The notes under the pieces were generated by a model. The model had not been told where the DNA came from, did not search any database, and worked only from the letters and a program-made list of their open reading frames with translations. From positions 1 through 49,460 of IMG/VR virus record IMGVR_UViG_3300022687_000028: 49,460 bases of DNA, one strand, 5' to 3'. Both the position numbers and the translations under genes were made by a program. Origin of the DNA: a virus. Shown piece by piece: positions 2,971 through 11,127 of this stretch (positions are counted from its first letter, which is position 1; each line of letters starts with the position of its first letter).

Positions 2971-4128
2971 TCAAACCCTCATCGGCATCAGCACGAATGT
3001 CATGTCGATCTCGTCATCGTCGGCGTGCACCGGGGCGAAGCGGGCGGGGTCTCCGCCGGTGGCGAGCGCCATGGTGGCGGCACCCGGAATGTGAGCCAGC
3101 ATCTCGGCCAGGTATTTAGCGTTGAAGCCGATCGTCACGTCCTCGCCATCGTCCGACGTCACATCCACGGCGTCCTGGCCTTCGCCGGCATCCGGGTTGC
3201 TGACCAGGAGCTCGACGGCATCCCGCCCCCAGACCATCTTCACCGCGCGCCCGCGTTCGCTCGAGACGATCGAGACGCGCTCGGTGGCGCTCAAGAGGGC
3301 GGCCACGTCGAAGCGCCAGCGGTTCGGGTTGTCCTGCGGGATCACCCGCACATAATCGGGATAGGTGCCGTCGATCAGTTTGGAGCCGATGGAGACCGCG
3401 CCAAGTTCGAAGCCGATCCGGTTCTCGCTCACGCTCACCGAGAGGGCGGCTTGTTTGTCCGCAGCTTTCAGCGCGCTCGCCAGCAGGCCCACGGTCTTGC
3501 GCGGAATGATCACGCCCGGCATGTCGGCCCAGAAGCTGGATTGGCCGCCGCTGGCAGACCAGATGGCCCGGGCCAACCGGTGGCCGTCGGTCGCCACCGT
3601 GATCAGCTGATTACCCGCAGCATGCAAATAAACGCCGTTGAGGTAGTAGCGCGTCTCCTCGGTGGAAATCGCAAAGGCGACTGCGGAGAGCATGGCTGCG
3701 AACTTGCCGGCCGGGATCTCGAAGCGCGCCGCCGGCGGTTCCTTCTCCACTAGCCGCGGCCAGTCCTCGCCGGGCAGAGTGGCGAGCGCAAAGCGCGACC
3801 GGCCACAGGTGAGCGCCATCTGGCCGGAAGCTGCGGTCTTCAGCGTCACCTCGGCCTTCGGCGGCAGCTTGCGCAGAATGTCGTTCAACAGGGCGGCCGG
3901 AAGGGTGATGCCCGCCTCGGGCATCGCTGTCATTTCGACGGCAGTCTCGACCGATGTCATAACGTCGAGGTCGGTGCCCGAAAGCCGCAGCGTGCCGCTG
4001 TCGGCTTCGTCGAGCAGCAAGTTGGCCAGCACGGGAATCGTGTTCTTGCGCTCCACCGGGGCAAGCGCGGTCTCGACGGCCGAAAGCAAGGTCTCGCGCA
4101 GGGTTGTGAGGGCGAATGTATCAGCCAT
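2971..4128 (-). CDS. dnaN: Phage-encoded DNA polymerase III beta sliding clamp
   Basis: The product is a homologue of the bacterial beta clamp, the ring that tethers DNA polymerase III and other enzymes to DNA. The 385 residues are close to the usual clamp length and fit three repeated domains. Recognisable segments are RKNTIPVLANLLLD, GTDLDV, the second-domain block TRYYLNGVYLH and ATDGHRLA, and the C-terminal VLMPMRV that forms part of the partner-binding pocket. An ATG at 4132-4134 exists, but the AAGGA at 4136-4140 sits at proper spacing for the ATG at 4128, which I prefer. A phage clamp could redirect host polymerase or compete for clamp-binding partners; this is inference. Confidence 0.93.
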   Translation of the reverse strand: MADTFALTTLRETLLSAVETALAPVERKNTIPVLANLLLDEADSGTLRLSGTDLDVMTSVETAVEMTAMPEAGITLPAALLNDILRKLPPKAEVTLKTAASGQMALTCGRSRFALATLPGEDWPRLVEKEPPAARFEIPAGKFAAMLSAVAFAISTEETRYYLNGVYLHAAGNQLITVATDGHRLARAIWSASGGQSSFWADMPGVIIPRKTVGLLASALKAADKQAALSVSVSENRIGFELGAVSIGSKLIDGTYPDYVRVIPQDNPNRWRFDVAALLSATERVSIVSSERGRAVKMVWGRDAVELLVSNPDAGEGQDAVDVTSDDGEDVTIGFNAKYLAEMLAHIPGAATMALATGGDPARFAPVHADDDEIDMTFVLMPMRV

Positions 4129-4152
4129 TGCCATATCCTTGTGGAGTTGGGG

Positions 4153-4194: not shown

Positions 4195-5133
4195 TCAGGC
4201 GGGCTCGGGCTTGCCGATAAAGCCGGGGAGGGTTGTGGCCTCCATGGCGTCTTCGTAGTCTTCGAGCACACGCTCCGTCACCGCCACGTCGGGCCGGTAG
4301 ATCTGATAGAACCAGACCGTCGAGCCCTCGCGGATGCGGTAGCGCAGCCGCACCGGAACGCGCTGGGCTTCGCCCATGTGGAACAGCGGGATTTGCAGCA
4401 TGAACAGGCCCGGCACCTTCAGGCTCTTGCCATCCGCGCCCTGGTGCGCCTCGTCCCAGGCAATCTGGCCCTCGCCGGTTTGCAGCACGACACTCGACAC
4501 CGCCTTCGACGCCACATGCACGGCCAGCCCGCGCGACAAAGCCACCAACTCCGAAGGCGTGGCGATCTTGGTGGCGAACTTCGCCTCGTAATCGGTCACC
4601 TCCATCACTTCCGGCGAGGACAGGTCGGCAATGTTGTCTTCGATGAACTGGGCGAAGTCCGACTGGTTCATCGGCTTGCCGTTCATCGCCACCCATGTCT
4701 TCCACTGCTCGGACAGCGGAAAGGCATAGTGGATGCGATGCTTGAGCCATTGCGCATCTGTGCCTTCGGCCTTGTGATAGTCGACCACGGTGGTCAACGC
4801 CGGGGCCTTCCAGTCGGTGTTGGCGAAAATCGCGCTGTCGGCGGTCTTGTGTCGGTTGGTCAGGTCGATGAATGACCCCAGCGCGTCCACCTGCGCTGTG
4901 CCGGTCTTGCGTTCCGGGAGCAGCCGCCATTCCTCGGCCAGGCGCTTCAGGCTGCTGAACTCGGGCGTCTCGCCATGCAGCTTGGCGATCGGCACCTGCT
5001 TGGGCAGGCCTTTGACGTCAAGATTGAGTTCAGTGATTTCGAGGCCAGCGGCTTCGCGCGCCAGCTTTGCGATCGCTTCGATGTGGTCGGTCTGGTTCGC
5101 CGGTTCGCCGGCGAGAGGGTCGGTCTTGGCCAT
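4195..5133 (-). CDS. DUF2303 (YfdQ-like) phage protein
   Basis: The 312-residue soluble protein matches the DUF2303 family, which includes YfdQ of E. coli prophage CPS-53. Supporting segments are GSFIDLTNRHK, SAIFANTDWKAPALTTVVDYH, HRIHYAFPLSEQWKTW and FAQFIEDNI, with a C-terminal FYQIYRPD block. Biochemical function is not known. Its neighbour at 6036-6734 is YfdR-like, and YfdQ and YfdR are neighbours in CPS-53, so the association is conserved across distant phages. A recombination or replication accessory role is plausible but unproven. Confidence 0.88.
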   Translation of the reverse strand: MAKTDPLAGEPANQTDHIEAIAKLAREAAGLEITELNLDVKGLPKQVPIAKLHGETPEFSSLKRLAEEWRLLPERKTGTAQVDALGSFIDLTNRHKTADSAIFANTDWKAPALTTVVDYHKAEGTDAQWLKHRIHYAFPLSEQWKTWVAMNGKPMNQSDFAQFIEDNIADLSSPEVMEVTDYEAKFATKIATPSELVALSRGLAVHVASKAVSSVVLQTGEGQIAWDEAHQGADGKSLKVPGLFMLQIPLFHMGEAQRVPVRLRYRIREGSTVWFYQIYRPDVAVTERVLEDYEDAMEATTLPGFIGKPEPA

Positions 5134-7454: not shown

Positions 7455-7781
7455 ATGATACGGATGATGATCGTCGCTGCGGCCTTGTCCATTGCAGCCA
7501 GCGGGGCGCTTGCGCAGGAAAAAATACTCGGCCAGCCTGGTGAAGGCATTGTCCTTGTATGGAGAGACAGCGACGCGCATAGCGAGGGGGTCAATCTTAT
7601 TGTGGCCGGCGTCCACAAAACCAACCCTTCGCTGGTCATGCAGCTCTTGGCTTGTATTGCTCAGCCTGGTGACAGGGCTGTCGTTACAGACGGCGGCTTC
7701 TTCTCCAGCACTATCCTGATAACCAGCGGCAAGCAGACCGGGTGCCGCGGCGTAATCACAAACGAGGACTTCCGGCGATAG
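7455..7781 (+). CDS. Small secreted protein, lysogenic-conversion candidate
   Basis: The 108-residue product has a clear Sec signal peptide (MIRMMIVAAALSIAAS..., likely cut after ALA-20) and a mature domain with two cysteines (C67, C97) that could form a disulfide in the periplasm. I do not recognise the family. It lies opposite to all neighbours, has its own promoter and a GGGAG ribosome site, and no cotranscribed partner. These are hallmarks of a moron that changes the lysogen rather than the phage cycle. What it does is unknown. Confidence 0.75.
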   Translation: MIRMMIVAAALSIAASGALAQEKILGQPGEGIVLVWRDSDAHSEGVNLIVAGVHKTNPSLVMQLLACIAQPGDRAVVTDGGFFSSTILITSGKQTGCRGVITNEDFRR

Positions 7782-7846: not shown

Positions 7847-8068
7847 TCATGCCACCCTCCGCACGCTCTGGCGGCGGGCGCGGGCGATGGCCTCGGCCGA
7901 CAGGCGCTTGACCGTGGGCAAGGTCCAGCCGCGCTGCACCAGGGTTTCGGTGCTGACATTCTCACCGGCAAAGGCCATCTCGCGCATGTCGCTGGCCATG
8001 CGGTCAACGAGCGAGGTGTGGCAGGGTGTTGCGGATGGTCGGGGTGATGTGACTTGATAGCGGAACAT
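7847..8068 (-). CDS. First gene of the leftward early operon (73 aa)
   Basis: Small soluble protein starting MFRYQVTSPRPSATP, with a helical middle (SLVDRMASDMREMAF) and a basic C-terminus (AIARARRQSVRRVA). The ATG at 8068 has a GGAG ribosome site eight bases upstream. It is the first gene after the predicted leftward promoter, in the position of lambda N or other early regulators, but shows no arginine-rich N-like start. Function unknown. Confidence 0.65.
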   Translation of the reverse strand: MFRYQVTSPRPSATPCHTSLVDRMASDMREMAFAGENVSTETLVQRGWTLPTVKRLSAEAIARARRQSVRRVA

Positions 8069-8153: not shown

Positions 8154-8183
8154 AACATGGCGTAAATCGCTATATTATGTCAA
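8154..8183 (-). promoter_or_regulatory. Predicted leftward early promoter (pL-like)
   Basis: On the minus strand TTGACA (8183-8178) is followed after 18 bases by CATGTT (8159-8154). An operator of the repressor family fills the spacer, just as at the rightward cro promoter. The -10 match is weak, so the exact start site is uncertain. Confidence 0.6.
8157..8173. promoter_or_regulatory. Repressor operator OL1
   Basis: ATGGCGTAAATCGCTAT, an imperfect 17-bp palindrome of the same family as the four other immunity operators. It occupies the spacer of the leftward promoter, so bound repressor would block RNA polymerase. Confidence 0.75.
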
Positions 8184-8191
8184 CCCAAAAA

Positions 8192-8208
8192 ATGGCGATA
8201 ATCGCCAT
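8192..8208. promoter_or_regulatory. Repressor operator OL2 (perfect palindrome)
   Basis: ATGGCGATAATCGCCAT: perfect 8-bp arms around one central base. Its centre is 35 bp from OL1, the same distance as between the two operators at the cro promoter. It also lies just upstream of the SWIM gene and could control it. Confidence 0.85.
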
Positions 8209-8267
8209 ATTATTAAATGAGCGCTTTGGTAGCGTGTTTGGACGGCGCAATCAGGGGTGGGCGGGTC

Positions 8268-8906
8268 ATGATCAAGTTGCTGGTGAAAGGTTCTGCCAAG
8301 GAGCCCTACAAGATCACTGCCGAGGGGAGTGGCGATGCCTTTCGGATCTTCTGTAACTGTCCAGCAGGCAGGAAGGGTGGCAAGTTCTGCAAGCACGCAG
8401 CTGCCATACTTATGGGTGATGTGACCAACCTTATGTCGCCGGCAGGGGACGTGGAGGCGGTAAAGGTGATGGCTGAGGGGAGTCCTCTTCTTGGGGCGGC
8501 GCTCAATCATGTTCCCGCCAAACCCAAATCAGCGCACGCTTACGGATATGCTGGCCTTGCGGACCTGTTTCAGGACATAGAGAAGGATCTGGAAGAACGC
8601 GGCTGGATTCCAAAGCTAGTGGAGCCGGATTCGGACGGCGATGAAGCGTTAGAGCTTTACGAACTTATCAAAAGCGGAAAGCGACCTTACAAGTGGCCAA
8701 GCGTTGTGCTGTATCGCGAGAACTCCGAGTATGATTACATAGCTCAAGAAGATGGATCGACGCTGGTGGTAAAGGGGCATCCTCGGTCTCGGCCTTGGGG
8801 TCTTAGAACCAAGGACAAGACCAATACTTGGGGCAGCTTAGATCGTGCCTTGCCGGCGTTTTTCGAAGTTGCTCGAATGCCGGCTTACTCTGGGCGAAAT
8901 GAATAA
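8268..8906 (+). CDS. SWIM zinc-finger protein in the immunity region
   Basis: The 212-residue product has a SWIM-type motif C29-x-C31-x9-C41-x-H43 (FCNCPAGRKGGKFCKH), a zinc-binding fold known for DNA or protein binding. The rest is an unrecognised acidic/aromatic domain with WIPKLVEPDSDGDEALELYELIK and WPSVVLYRENSEYDYI. I prefer the ATG at 8268, which has AGGGG upstream, over the ATG at 8217, which has none. The gene converges on the repressor gene (22-base 3' overlap) and sits between the two immunity promoters, the place of rexAB in lambda. A role in the lysogen, such as exclusion of other phages, is possible but is inference. Confidence 0.85.
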   Translation: MIKLLVKGSAKEPYKITAEGSGDAFRIFCNCPAGRKGGKFCKHAAAILMGDVTNLMSPAGDVEAVKVMAEGSPLLGAALNHVPAKPKSAHAYGYAGLADLFQDIEKDLEERGWIPKLVEPDSDGDEALELYELIKSGKRPYKWPSVVLYRENSEYDYIAQEDGSTLVVKGHPRSRPWGLRTKDKTNTWGSLDRALPAFFEVARMPAYSGRNE

Positions 8907-9511
8907 AGCACGCGCCCGACAATCCGGACCGTATCACCATCGTCGCCGTTTAGCTCTATTGGTTGTTGGTGGCGCGGGTCAGTAGACTCTGGCATGAGCC
9001 AAAGCTTGTTGGTGTCATCGAGAAACAGGGTCTTGACTGTGTCCTCGCGAAGGCCATCTGCTCTTTCCCTCTGAACAATGTATCGCTTACCCGGTTTGAT
9101 TGTCTCCTGGCTCTCGATGAGTGGGGTGAAAATCAGGATGGTGCCCTCGGGGTAAACCTTGTTCATAGACGAACCCCGGGTCTCCGCCCCGTAGAGGTTT
9201 ACACCTTCCAATTCGCGTGACGCGGGGATGGCCACTTCATACCAATCATCTTCTTGCCATTCGTAGGACTCCGCCCATACTCCGGCCTCCACGTGCGCCC
9301 GAACGCGAACCTTGATTGTCTTGCTATCATCGGAAATCAAGTCCTTCGGGTCCACTCCGAGGATATCAGCTATGTCCTTCATTTTGGCGTAGGTGAGATT
9401 GACCTTGCCGTTCTCCAGACGATTATAATTGGTCAAGTCAATGCCCAGCTTGGCGGCAATCTCTGCCTGCGTTAGCCCAGACGCTTTCCGAATCTTCTTT
9501 AATCTCAGCAT
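8885..9511 (-). CDS. S24/LexA-type prophage repressor
   Basis: The 208-residue protein has an N-terminal HTH (residues 2-57, SGLTQAEIAAKLG...NYNRLENGK) and a C-terminal S24 peptidase domain. Autocleavage features are visible: an Ala-Gly pair at 76-77 (VEAGVW), catalytic Ser115 in RGSSMNK and Lys160 in EDTVKTLF. It should hold lysogeny by binding the 17-bp operators and be inactivated through RecA after DNA damage. The ATG at 9511 follows a TATATT box by six bases and has no ribosome site, so the message is probably leaderless. A longer TTG start at 9562 would run through two operators and is rejected. Confidence 0.93.
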   Translation of the reverse strand: MLRLKKIRKASGLTQAEIAAKLGIDLTNYNRLENGKVNLTYAKMKDIADILGVDPKDLISDDSKTIKVRVRAHVEAGVWAESYEWQEDDWYEVAIPASRELEGVNLYGAETRGSSMNKVYPEGTILIFTPLIESQETIKPGKRYIVQRERADGLREDTVKTLFLDDTNKLWLMPESTDPRHQQPIELNGDDGDTVRIVGRVLYSFRPE

Positions 9512-9517
9512 GTTATC

Positions 9518-9523
9518 AATATA
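9518..9523 (-). promoter_or_regulatory. Repressor promoter (pRM-like) -10 box
   Basis: TATATT on the minus strand, six bases before the repressor ATG. No good -35 lies upstream (the matching position reads CATATT), as expected for a promoter that is weak or needs activation. The operator at 9521-9537 overlaps the box. Confidence 0.55.
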
Positions 9524-9537
9524 GCGTTTTTCGCCAT
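9521..9537. promoter_or_regulatory. Repressor operator at the repressor promoter
   Basis: On the minus strand it reads ATGGCGAAAAACGCTAT, one base different from the operator at the cro promoter (9581-9597). It overlaps the pRM -10 box by three bases, so binding should repress the repressor gene. Confidence 0.75.
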
Positions 9538-9545
9538 CCCTAAAT

Positions 9546-9562
9546 ATGGCGATAAGCGCCAA
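9546..9562. promoter_or_regulatory. Central repressor operator
   Basis: ATGGCGATAAGCGCCAA, near-palindromic member of the family, between the repressor and cro promoters. Its centre is 25 bp from the operator at 9521-9537 and 35 bp from the one at 9581-9597. Confidence 0.75.
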
Positions 9563-9569
9563 ATGTCGC

Positions 9570-9600
9570 TTGACAGTAATATGGCGAATAACGCTATATT
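9570..9600 (+). promoter_or_regulatory. Rightward early promoter (pR-like)
   Basis: TTGACA (9570-9575) and CTATAT/TATATT (9594-9600) with an 18-19 base spacer. The spacer is filled by an operator. The predicted start is at or next to the cro ATG (9607). Confidence 0.75.
9581..9597. promoter_or_regulatory. Repressor operator at the cro promoter
   Basis: ATGGCGAATAACGCTAT between -35 and -10 of the rightward promoter, overlapping the -10 by three bases. It is the mirror copy of the operator at the repressor promoter. Confidence 0.78.
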
Positions 9601-9606
9601 ACGCCT

Positions 9607-9864
9607 ATGAGATTGAATGAGTGGCGAATTGCGTCGGAAAAGACGCTTGGTGAATGTGCGGTGCTTCTCGGCTTGAGCGGTGCCCGGACATACCACCGCT
9701 ATGAGACCGGCGAAAACCGAGTTGATGCGGATTTGGTCGATGTCATCATACGGGTGACCAACGGAGCGGTGACCGCCGCTGACATGCATGCCACGCGTCT
9801 TGACTGGCTCAAGGCCAACCGCCCCGAAAAATTCGCGGGCCTTGCTCCGGAGGCCGCCGAATGA
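9607..9864 (+). CDS. Cro-like HTH regulator
   Basis: Small 85-residue DNA-binding protein with an XRE-like helix-turn-helix (about residues 10-45: KTLGECAVLLGLSGARTYHRYETG). It is divergent from the repressor and first in the rightward operon, which is the position of cro. The ATG lies six bases after TATATT with no ribosome site, so the transcript is probably leaderless. It should compete with the repressor at the operators to favour lytic growth. It ends about 20 bases before the tRNA. Confidence 0.85.
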   Translation: MRLNEWRIASEKTLGECAVLLGLSGARTYHRYETGENRVDADLVDVIIRVTNGAVTAADMHATRLDWLKANRPEKFAGLAPEAAE

Positions 9865-9884: not shown

Positions 9885-9960
9885 TGCAGGATGGAGAAGA
9901 GGTCATCTCACGTGGCTCATAACCACGGGATCCCCGGTTCGAATCCGGGTCCTGCAACCA
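9885..9960 (+). tRNA. tRNA with CAT anticodon (Met type), CCA encoded
   Basis: A complete 76-base cloverleaf. The acceptor TGCAGGA (9885-9891) pairs with TCCTGCA (9950-9956). The D stem is GAGA/TCTC with GG in the loop. The anticodon stem CGTGG/CCACG holds loop CTCATAA (anticodon CAT at 9918-9920). The variable loop is GGATC and the T arm is CCCGG-TTCGAAT-CCGGG. Discriminator A and CCA (9958-9960) are encoded. Position 1 pairs with 72 and the initiator GGG/CCC anticodon stem is absent, so it is an elongator-type tRNA. It may read AUG, or AUA if the C is modified to lysidine. It lies in the early rightward transcript. Confidence 0.94.
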
Positions 9961-10559: not shown

Positions 10560-10585
10560 CTGGCCTGATCAAACCATCTGAATGG

Positions 10586-10604
10586 CTTTCCCACTACGGG
10601 AAAG
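10586..10604. promoter_or_regulatory. Palindromic operator 1 (CTTTCCC-N5-GGGAAAG)
   Basis: Perfect 7-bp inverted repeat with a five-base spacer, 37 bases upstream of the regulator gene at 10642. It shares the TTTCCC-N5-GGGAAA core with the site at 10615-10631, so it is probably a binding site for the adjacent regulator. Confidence 0.7.
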
Positions 10605-10614
10605 TGAACCGGGT

Positions 10615-10631
10615 TTTCCCGGAACGGGAAA
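10615..10631. promoter_or_regulatory. Palindromic operator 2 (TTTCCC-N5-GGGAAA)
   Basis: Second copy of the same 6-bp inverted repeat, centred 28 bp from the first and ending ten bases before the regulator start. It also covers the ribosome site region, so binding could block initiation. Confidence 0.7.
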
Positions 10632-10641
10632 GGATTGCCCA

Positions 10642-11127
10642 ATGCTCAAGAATGCCTGGTTTTACCGCATCAAGGCGGCGCAGCGCGATCTGATCAATCT
10701 GTCGGGCGGCATCGAGCGCGTGGCCGAGATCACCTCGATCTCGAAAAGCCATGTCGGCCGCTGGAACAACGCCCAGGACACCGACCTGATGCCGATCAAC
10801 GCGGTGCTGATGCTGGAAGAGAATTGCGGCGTGGCGCTGATCACCAGCGTGATGGCGGAGCTCAATGGCCGCAGGCTTTCGGATGAAACCGAGCACGGCC
10901 AGCGCAATGCCGATGTGCTGTCGGCCTATGCCGAAACGGTGCGCCATGCGGGCGAGGTGATGAGCGCCGGTGCGTTGGCGCTGGCCGACGGCACGGTGAC
11001 GCCGGCAGAAGCTCTCAATGTCGACCGCGCGGTCTCGGTGCTCGAGCGCGGCCTCTCCGAGTTGCGCCAGACGCTTGCCCATGTGCGGGCGGGCGATCTG
11101 AAGGTCGTGGCCGGGGAGGGCAGGTGA
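10642..11127 (+). CDS. Small DNA-binding early regulator
   Basis: The 161-residue product has an N-terminal HTH-like segment (residues 5-50: RIKAAQRDLINLSGGIERVAEITSISKSHVGRWN) and a helical C-terminal half ending in a likely oligomerisation helix (ALNVDRAVSVLERGLSELRQTL). This resembles CII-like or phage regulatory proteins of alphaproteobacterial phages. The ATG at 10642 has GGAAAGG upstream. Two palindromes directly precede it and suggest autoregulation. The exact promoter it controls is not known. Confidence 0.75.
   Translation: MLKNAWFYRIKAAQRDLINLSGGIERVAEITSISKSHVGRWNNAQDTDLMPINAVLMLEENCGVALITSVMAELNGRRLSDETEHGQRNADVLSAYAETVRHAGEVMSAGALALADGTVTPAEALNVDRAVSVLERGLSELRQTLAHVRAGDLKVVAGEGR

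Follow-up and report, generated by a model that had tools for sequence, protein, structure and literature searches.

The window, a whole virus record of 49,460 bp, carries terminase, portal, tape measure, tail sheath (phrog_23) and baseplate genes, the latter including a baseplate wedge (phrog_6), and was therefore assigned to a myophage, as an initial sequence-only reading of this DNA had claimed. The genes of its immunity region and the integrase gene are as follows.

1-1104, strand not given: integrase gene, found by domain search
7847-8068, minus strand: first leftward gene after the promoter pL, a phrog_31312 match of unknown function
8217-8906, plus strand: SWIM zinc-finger ORF with an alternative start (ATG 8268), convergent with the repressor gene
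8885-9511, minus strand: CI-type repressor of 208 amino acids, HTH_3 and Peptidase_S24, phrog_4 repressor
9607-9864, plus strand: HTH protein of 85 amino acids in the Cro position, HTH_31 match below the curated cut-off
10582-11127, plus strand: CII-like regulator in the rightward early operon, phrog_101 (scanned from 10600), Phage_CP76 just below the cut-off

The leftward side holds the phrog_31312, DUF2303, DNA polymerase III beta clamp and integrase genes, the phage-encoded clamp (2971-4134, minus strand) having all three Pfam domains. An ORF at 7455-7781 on the plus strand, opposed to the direction of the leftward operon, has a signal-peptide-like start and no family match and is a possible moron. 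The SWIM ORF runs antisense to the repressor gene and overlaps its 3' end by 22 bp; it occurs at this place in the closest relatives only (the window and L006-L009), and a homologue search returned one distant relative only. Its position resembles that of lambda rex, but the strand is opposite. Directly downstream of the cro-like gene, and inside the predicted rightward early transcript, lies a tRNA-Met gene (CAT anticodon, encoded CCA; 9885-9960, plus strand), and similar tRNA-Met genes are found in Rhizobium phage RR1-A and Pseudomonas phage D3.

Five copies of a 17-bp site of the type ATRGCG-N5-CGCYAT are arranged on the two sides of the repressor gene, together with two TTGACA boxes and three candidate -10 boxes.

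8154-8159, minus strand: pL -10 candidate CATGTT, 18-bp spacer, weak (relatives have CATATT)
8157-8173, no strand: OL1 operator ATGGCGTAAATCGCTAT, within the spacer and -10 of the leftward promoter pL, at a matching place in relatives
8178-8183, minus strand: pL -35 box TTGACA; most relatives with a 34-36 bp spacing have TTGAC[AGT] at -18/-19 from the OL1 centre
8192-8208, no strand: OL2 operator ATGGCGATAATCGCCAT, 35 bp from OL1 and upstream of the pL -35 box
9518-9523, minus strand: -10 candidate TATATT of the repressor's own (pRM-like) promoter, with the ATG 6 bp onward
9521-9537, no strand: OR3 operator ATAGCGTTTTTCGCCAT, overlapping the repressor's own -10 box, 25 bp from OR2
9546-9562, no strand: OR2 operator ATGGCGATAAGCGCCAA, 35 bp from OR1, its centre preceding the repressor ATG by 43 bp
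9570-9575, plus strand: pR -35 box TTGACA, in most relatives at -19 from the R1 centre, across operator classes
9581-9597, no strand: OR1 operator ATGGCGAATAACGCTAT, with its centre 18 bp before the cro-like ATG
9595-9600, plus strand: pR -10 candidate TATATT, 19-bp spacer

Both a direct search and a matrix built from relatives recovered the sites starting at 8157, 8192, 9521, 9546 and 9581, all five of which the sequence-only reading had listed. Querying the whole window with ATGGCGATAATCGCCAT and allowing up to three mismatches gave matches at these sites only (seven strand-wise, 0.13 expected), and none of 100 shuffles gave seven matches. A symmetrised weight matrix was then derived from the operators of five relatives, leaving the window's own sites out of training, and in a scan of the 49,460 bp the five sites were the top five, scoring 25.99 (OL2), 24.59, 24.59, 24.59 and 21.43 bits. 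The genome scan proposed beforehand as a check thus confines the sites to the immunity region. The sixth-best match (14.5 bits, position 4820, within the DUF2303 gene) was rejected as an operator, as the best matches in 20 first-order Markov sequences of window length ranged from 8.6 to 19.4 bits. A minus-strand terminator call at 8192-8208 was also rejected, this stretch being one of five spaced copies; other palindromic words occupy the matching place in relatives.

Measured from centre to centre, the distances are 35 bp for 8157/8192, 25 bp for 9521/9546 and 35 bp for 9546/9581, confirming the second operator 35 bp upstream that had been described for both sides. Each 35-bp pair flanks a TTGACA, and the two boxes face outward in opposite directions, away from the repressor gene, so that the mirror-image promoters of the sequence-only reading are real. 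Its statement that one operator fills the -35/-10 spacer holds in so far as most of the spacer is covered, but the -10 box is overlapped as well. That reading did not mention that OR2 and OR3 are 25 bp apart, that the left -10 box is weak or that OR2 is located at -43 of the repressor promoter. With TTGACA-19-TATATT on the right and TTGACA-18-CATGTT on the left, neither pR nor pL was reported by a consensus promoter scan (16-18 bp spacers, 9/12 matches), because the spacers are 18-19 bp long and the left -10 box is weak, and the promoters were judged by cross-phage alignment in place of a sigma-70 scan. The weak left -10 box and the 19-bp pR spacer, which is long for sigma-70, are points against reading the locus as a switch. 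The repressor's own promoter shows no good -35 box. A TATATT lies 6-7 bp ahead of the ATG of both regulators (6 bp for the cro-like gene), and leaderless repressor and Cro mRNAs are therefore predicted. The centre of OR3 is 18 bp from the repressor ATG, a distance that is about 18 bp from R3 in the ATRGCG, TTGTCG and GTAGCC classes of relatives, and in most loci 16-20 bp separate the R1 centre from the ATG of the gene in the Cro position.

The product of 8885-9511 has the architecture of a CI protein of the lambda/LexA type, with an N-terminal Cro/C1-type HTH (HTH_3, E 3.5e-14) and a C-terminal S24 domain (Peptidase_S24, E 6.5e-10), as well as an Ala-Gly cleavage site and a Ser/Lys dyad, with A76-G77, S115 and K160 invariant across 24 sequences. 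In the AlphaFold model (mean pLDDT 88) the recognition helix is the third helix, residues 26-33 (LTNYNRLE). The first Foldseek matches of the model were the lambda-186 hybrid repressor and then the lambda repressor. Residues 1-60 match C1-type HTH structures with Z about 10-12, and the S24 part aligns with lambda CI from the RecA complex (Z 12.9, 122 residues, 3.0 Å) and with LexA (Z 12.6). The earlier assignment of this gene as the repressor is upheld by these domains and by the model, which aligns best to lambda CI and LexA.

We collected relatives by repressor search, obtaining seven in viral contigs, 13 in Hyphomicrobiales and other alphaproteobacterial genomes, and 47 in viral contigs (some repeats). 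The five close relatives, whose repressors are 57-65% identical, have the same five sites; they lie at matching places in L006-L009 and likewise in L010, though this locus lacks a SWIM gene between OL and OR. A loose one-mismatch pattern was discarded for relatives as too permissive, since it matched elsewhere at background level. When 48 non-redundant upstream regions were searched blindly for trios of palindromes that resemble one another, most regions scored 44-69, versus 36-44 in shuffled controls. The spacings depend on the repressor class, being 35/25 in ATRGCG, 36/24 in TTGTCG and GTAGCC, and 22/34 in ATGGGC, and other regions of the set show 24/34-35, 25/21-22 and 35/34. An Agrobacterium plasmid, pAtCFBP5507b, belongs to the TTGTCG class. 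In L032, L033 and L035 a sixth operator-like palindrome, ATGTCATTGATCGACAT, is present at 3663, after the repressor gene, where it makes up the stem of a hairpin that resembles a terminator and has a T run behind it.

The left operators can be found from the right ones. For 38 loci with a clear array, the window included, a matrix was made from the three sites preceding the repressor gene and applied to what remained of the locus (4-9 kb); in 35 of them the next two best matches lay beyond the repressor gene, paired at a distance of 18-40 bp. The other three are scan artefacts (identical R2/R3 with one copy unmasked in L047, off-centre windows in L059 and L062), and their OL pairs are visible in a separate analysis. 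In most loci the start of TTGAC precedes the OL1 centre by 18 or 19 bp and the OR1 centre by 19 bp. A held-out locus, that of Nostoc phage Nsp-JY10 (PP395642), which a protein search had brought up, has 35/24 sites before the repressor gene and a 35-bp pair with TTGACG behind it, which is the five-site layout of the window. By sequence comparison, layout and promoter positions persist while the word of the site varies, with about a dozen kinds.

For the spacings we chose by hand one representative per operator word. The resulting 41 spacings fall into two groups, 21-25 and 30-36 bp, with peaks at 25 and 35 bp (Rayleigh R 0.77 at 10.5 bp), that is, about one helical turn apart. Adjacent operators of lambda are spaced by 23-24 bp, within the shorter group. 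The pattern would fit a lambda-like side-by-side contact of dimers, with one extra turn of DNA in the longer group leaving room for the -35 box. An alternative is that the switch is the same but the 35-bp pairs are non-cooperative, OL2 and OR2 acting independently and the spacing being set by the fit of TTGACA. Since the long-spaced pair invariably encloses a TTGACA, this distance could be dictated by the promoter alone; yet the two groups occur in all four orders across operator classes (long-short, short-long, short-short and long-long), and the long spacing is also seen between R2 and R3 where there is no TTGACA (e.g. in L020, L058 and L065). We consider non-cooperative pairs possible but rather doubtful.

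If the repressor reads the five sites, its recognition helix should change with the word, and this is what the comparison of relatives indicates. Similarity of the word correlates with similarity of the recognition helix with a Mantel r of 0.83 (n = 35, p = 0.0005, the floor of 2000 permutations), a value to be read with the co-inheritance of the helix and the rest of the HTH domain in mind, from which descent is not fully separated. The partial correlation is 0.79 given the C-terminal domain and 0.49 given the rest of the HTH domain, and C-terminal similarity given the helix correlates with the word at 0.21. Repressors with similar C domains and different helices go with unrelated words (e.g. 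L051/L054, C-domain identity 78%). The helices read [D/H]LTNYN[R/K] in the ATRGCG class, [T/S]TENYNR in the TTGTCG class and HP[I/V]T[V/I]SK in the GTAGCC class.

We also reversed the approach: patterns that combined TTGACA with an operator word, and took no account of the repressor, were run against 2.9 million viral contigs. The expected helix type was present in 19/19 loci with an adjacent full-length homologue, some of whose repressors were new to the set (L074, L076, L094, L099 and L102). Beside matching words, L073/L093 and L104 encode more distant S24 repressors with other helices, and the word therefore does not dictate one helix. As a stand-alone detector the promoter-plus-operator pattern was rejected, as many matches have no family repressor nearby. 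Locus L074 (IMGVR_UViG_2829772224_000004) encodes a much more distant S24 repressor with the helix HWTNLSKIE and has ATAGCG operators with an outward TTGACA on both sides; this case suggests that the operator word is used beyond the repressor family of the window.

The tracking of word and helix is the strongest evidence from sequence that the repressor reads the five sites. Cro-like proteins also vary with the word, and the protein that selects it is not separated everywhere. One may thus propose that the sites serve mainly the Cro-like protein 9607-9864 and that the S24 repressor reads something else. CI and Cro of lambda share operator sites, and the helix region of the Cro-like protein follows the class in part, being NPARSLQRYE in GTAGCC phages and ARTYQRYE in ATRGCG and TTGTCG phages. 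Between the latter two classes, however, the Cro-like ARTYQRYE is nearly unchanged whereas the repressor helix changes from LTNYN to TENYN. Moreover, the sites overlap pL and the repressor's own promoter, as expected of a prophage repressor, and no other repeated palindrome was seen in the immunity region. We regard a main role for the Cro-like protein as very unlikely. Even less probable, and close to negligible in our estimate, is the option that a regulator of the host (SOS LexA or some other XRE protein) binds the sites and places the phage promoters under host control. Palindromes in promoter spacers could bind any dimeric regulator, but from one phage to the next different words stand at the same fixed positions, in keeping with the helix of the repressor that each phage encodes, and the word is unlike the alphaproteobacterial SOS box, GTTC-N7-GTTC.

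Against these alternatives, the five sites are very probably the operators of a phage lysogeny switch that the CI-type repressor 8885-9511 reads. The computed sites, geometry, conservation and covariation with the recognition helix support the lambda-like switch that had been proposed from the window alone; how it would operate we infer as follows. Repressor dimers on OL1 and OR1 would cover the -10 box and spacer of pL and pR and block RNA polymerase, with OL2 and OR2, which lie 35 bp upstream beyond the respective TTGACA, as putative cooperative partner sites. Lambda CI activates PRM from OR2 at -42, and with OR2 at -43 of a leaderless promoter that has no good -35 box, activation of the repressor promoter is plausible here, too. 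OR3, on the -10 box and spacer of that promoter, would mediate autorepression. During lytic growth, competition for these sites probably comes from the divergent Cro-like protein, and DNA damage would trigger S24 self-cleavage, releasing pL and pR. OL2 lies 9 bp ahead of the ATG at 8217 and may also silence the SWIM gene in the prophage. Looping between OL and OR over about 1.36 kb is possible, as the C domain is lambda-like; the OL-OR distance varies widely among relatives (about 0.65-2 kb), so that looping is not required by the data.

The locus shares with lambda the divergent cI/cro genes with three OR sites between them, operators that by sequence overlap pL and pR, a CI of HTH plus S24, a CII-like gene in the right operon, a leaderless repressor mRNA (predicted here), and the placing of two operators relative to the repressor promoter (OR2 near -42, OR3 near -18). 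It differs in having two OL sites and three OR sites versus three on each side, in the 35-bp spacing of OR1-OR2 and OL1-OL2 with a -35 box between the operators (versus 23-24 bp; OR2-OR3 is 25 bp), in an unrelated operator word, in a Cro mRNA that also looks leaderless, and in the presence, between OL and OR, of a SWIM gene that runs antisense to the repressor gene. Operator counts are 3+3 in lambda and 3+2 in N15 and phiKO2, and leaderless cI and cro mRNAs have been measured in the telomere phage PY54 (PMC4488713). Three OR and two OL operators thus liken the window to immB of N15 and phiKO2 (CB repressor; PY54 is a relative), from which it differs in operator words, hosts and lifestyle, the window having an integrase gene. 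Multi-operator immunity in an alphaproteobacterial temperate phage is also described for the C repressor of Rhizobium/Sinorhizobium phage 16-3, which we liken to the window by the description cited in PMC10460002. For the Hyphomicrobiales prophage BiPBO1 of Brucella, similar by its description in having a repressor-like gene divergent from a second gene, a cI/cro-like arrangement was reported with operators not predictable in silico (PMC4729917).

Switches of this kind are known, and as a correlation of Cro recognition helices with operator half-sites is already mentioned for lambdoid phages (PMC4488713), the principle is not new. Measured against the open-licence literature, new are the operator words, the 35-bp pairs astride a -35 box, and the use of one scaffold with about a dozen words. 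About as likely as not, in our view, is a broader proposal, namely that one immunity scaffold is common to a family of alphaproteobacterial prophages. Its operator pairs would occupy rungs of about 24 or 35 bp, with the -35 box placed on the long rung between cooperatively bound dimers, and HTH and word would be exchanged together to give a dozen specificities readable from sequence. For the window, the sequence-only reading had spoken of a complete, predictable repressor code; the five-site map stands, the wording was overstated. The myophage gains a full, testable operator map, and dozens of uncharacterised alphaproteobacterial prophages can be read by the same map, among them the Brucella/Ochrobactrum-type group, where operators had been reported as unpredictable. 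The pairs of helix and operator form a natural specificity series, in which the repressor helices of the ATRGCG and TTGTCG classes differ little, and with two spacing groups that are offset by one helical turn, natural variants allow a direct test of the classical question of cooperativity. From a list of helices and operators, homo- and heteroimmunity among prophages would be predictable, and the list would supply repressor/promoter parts.
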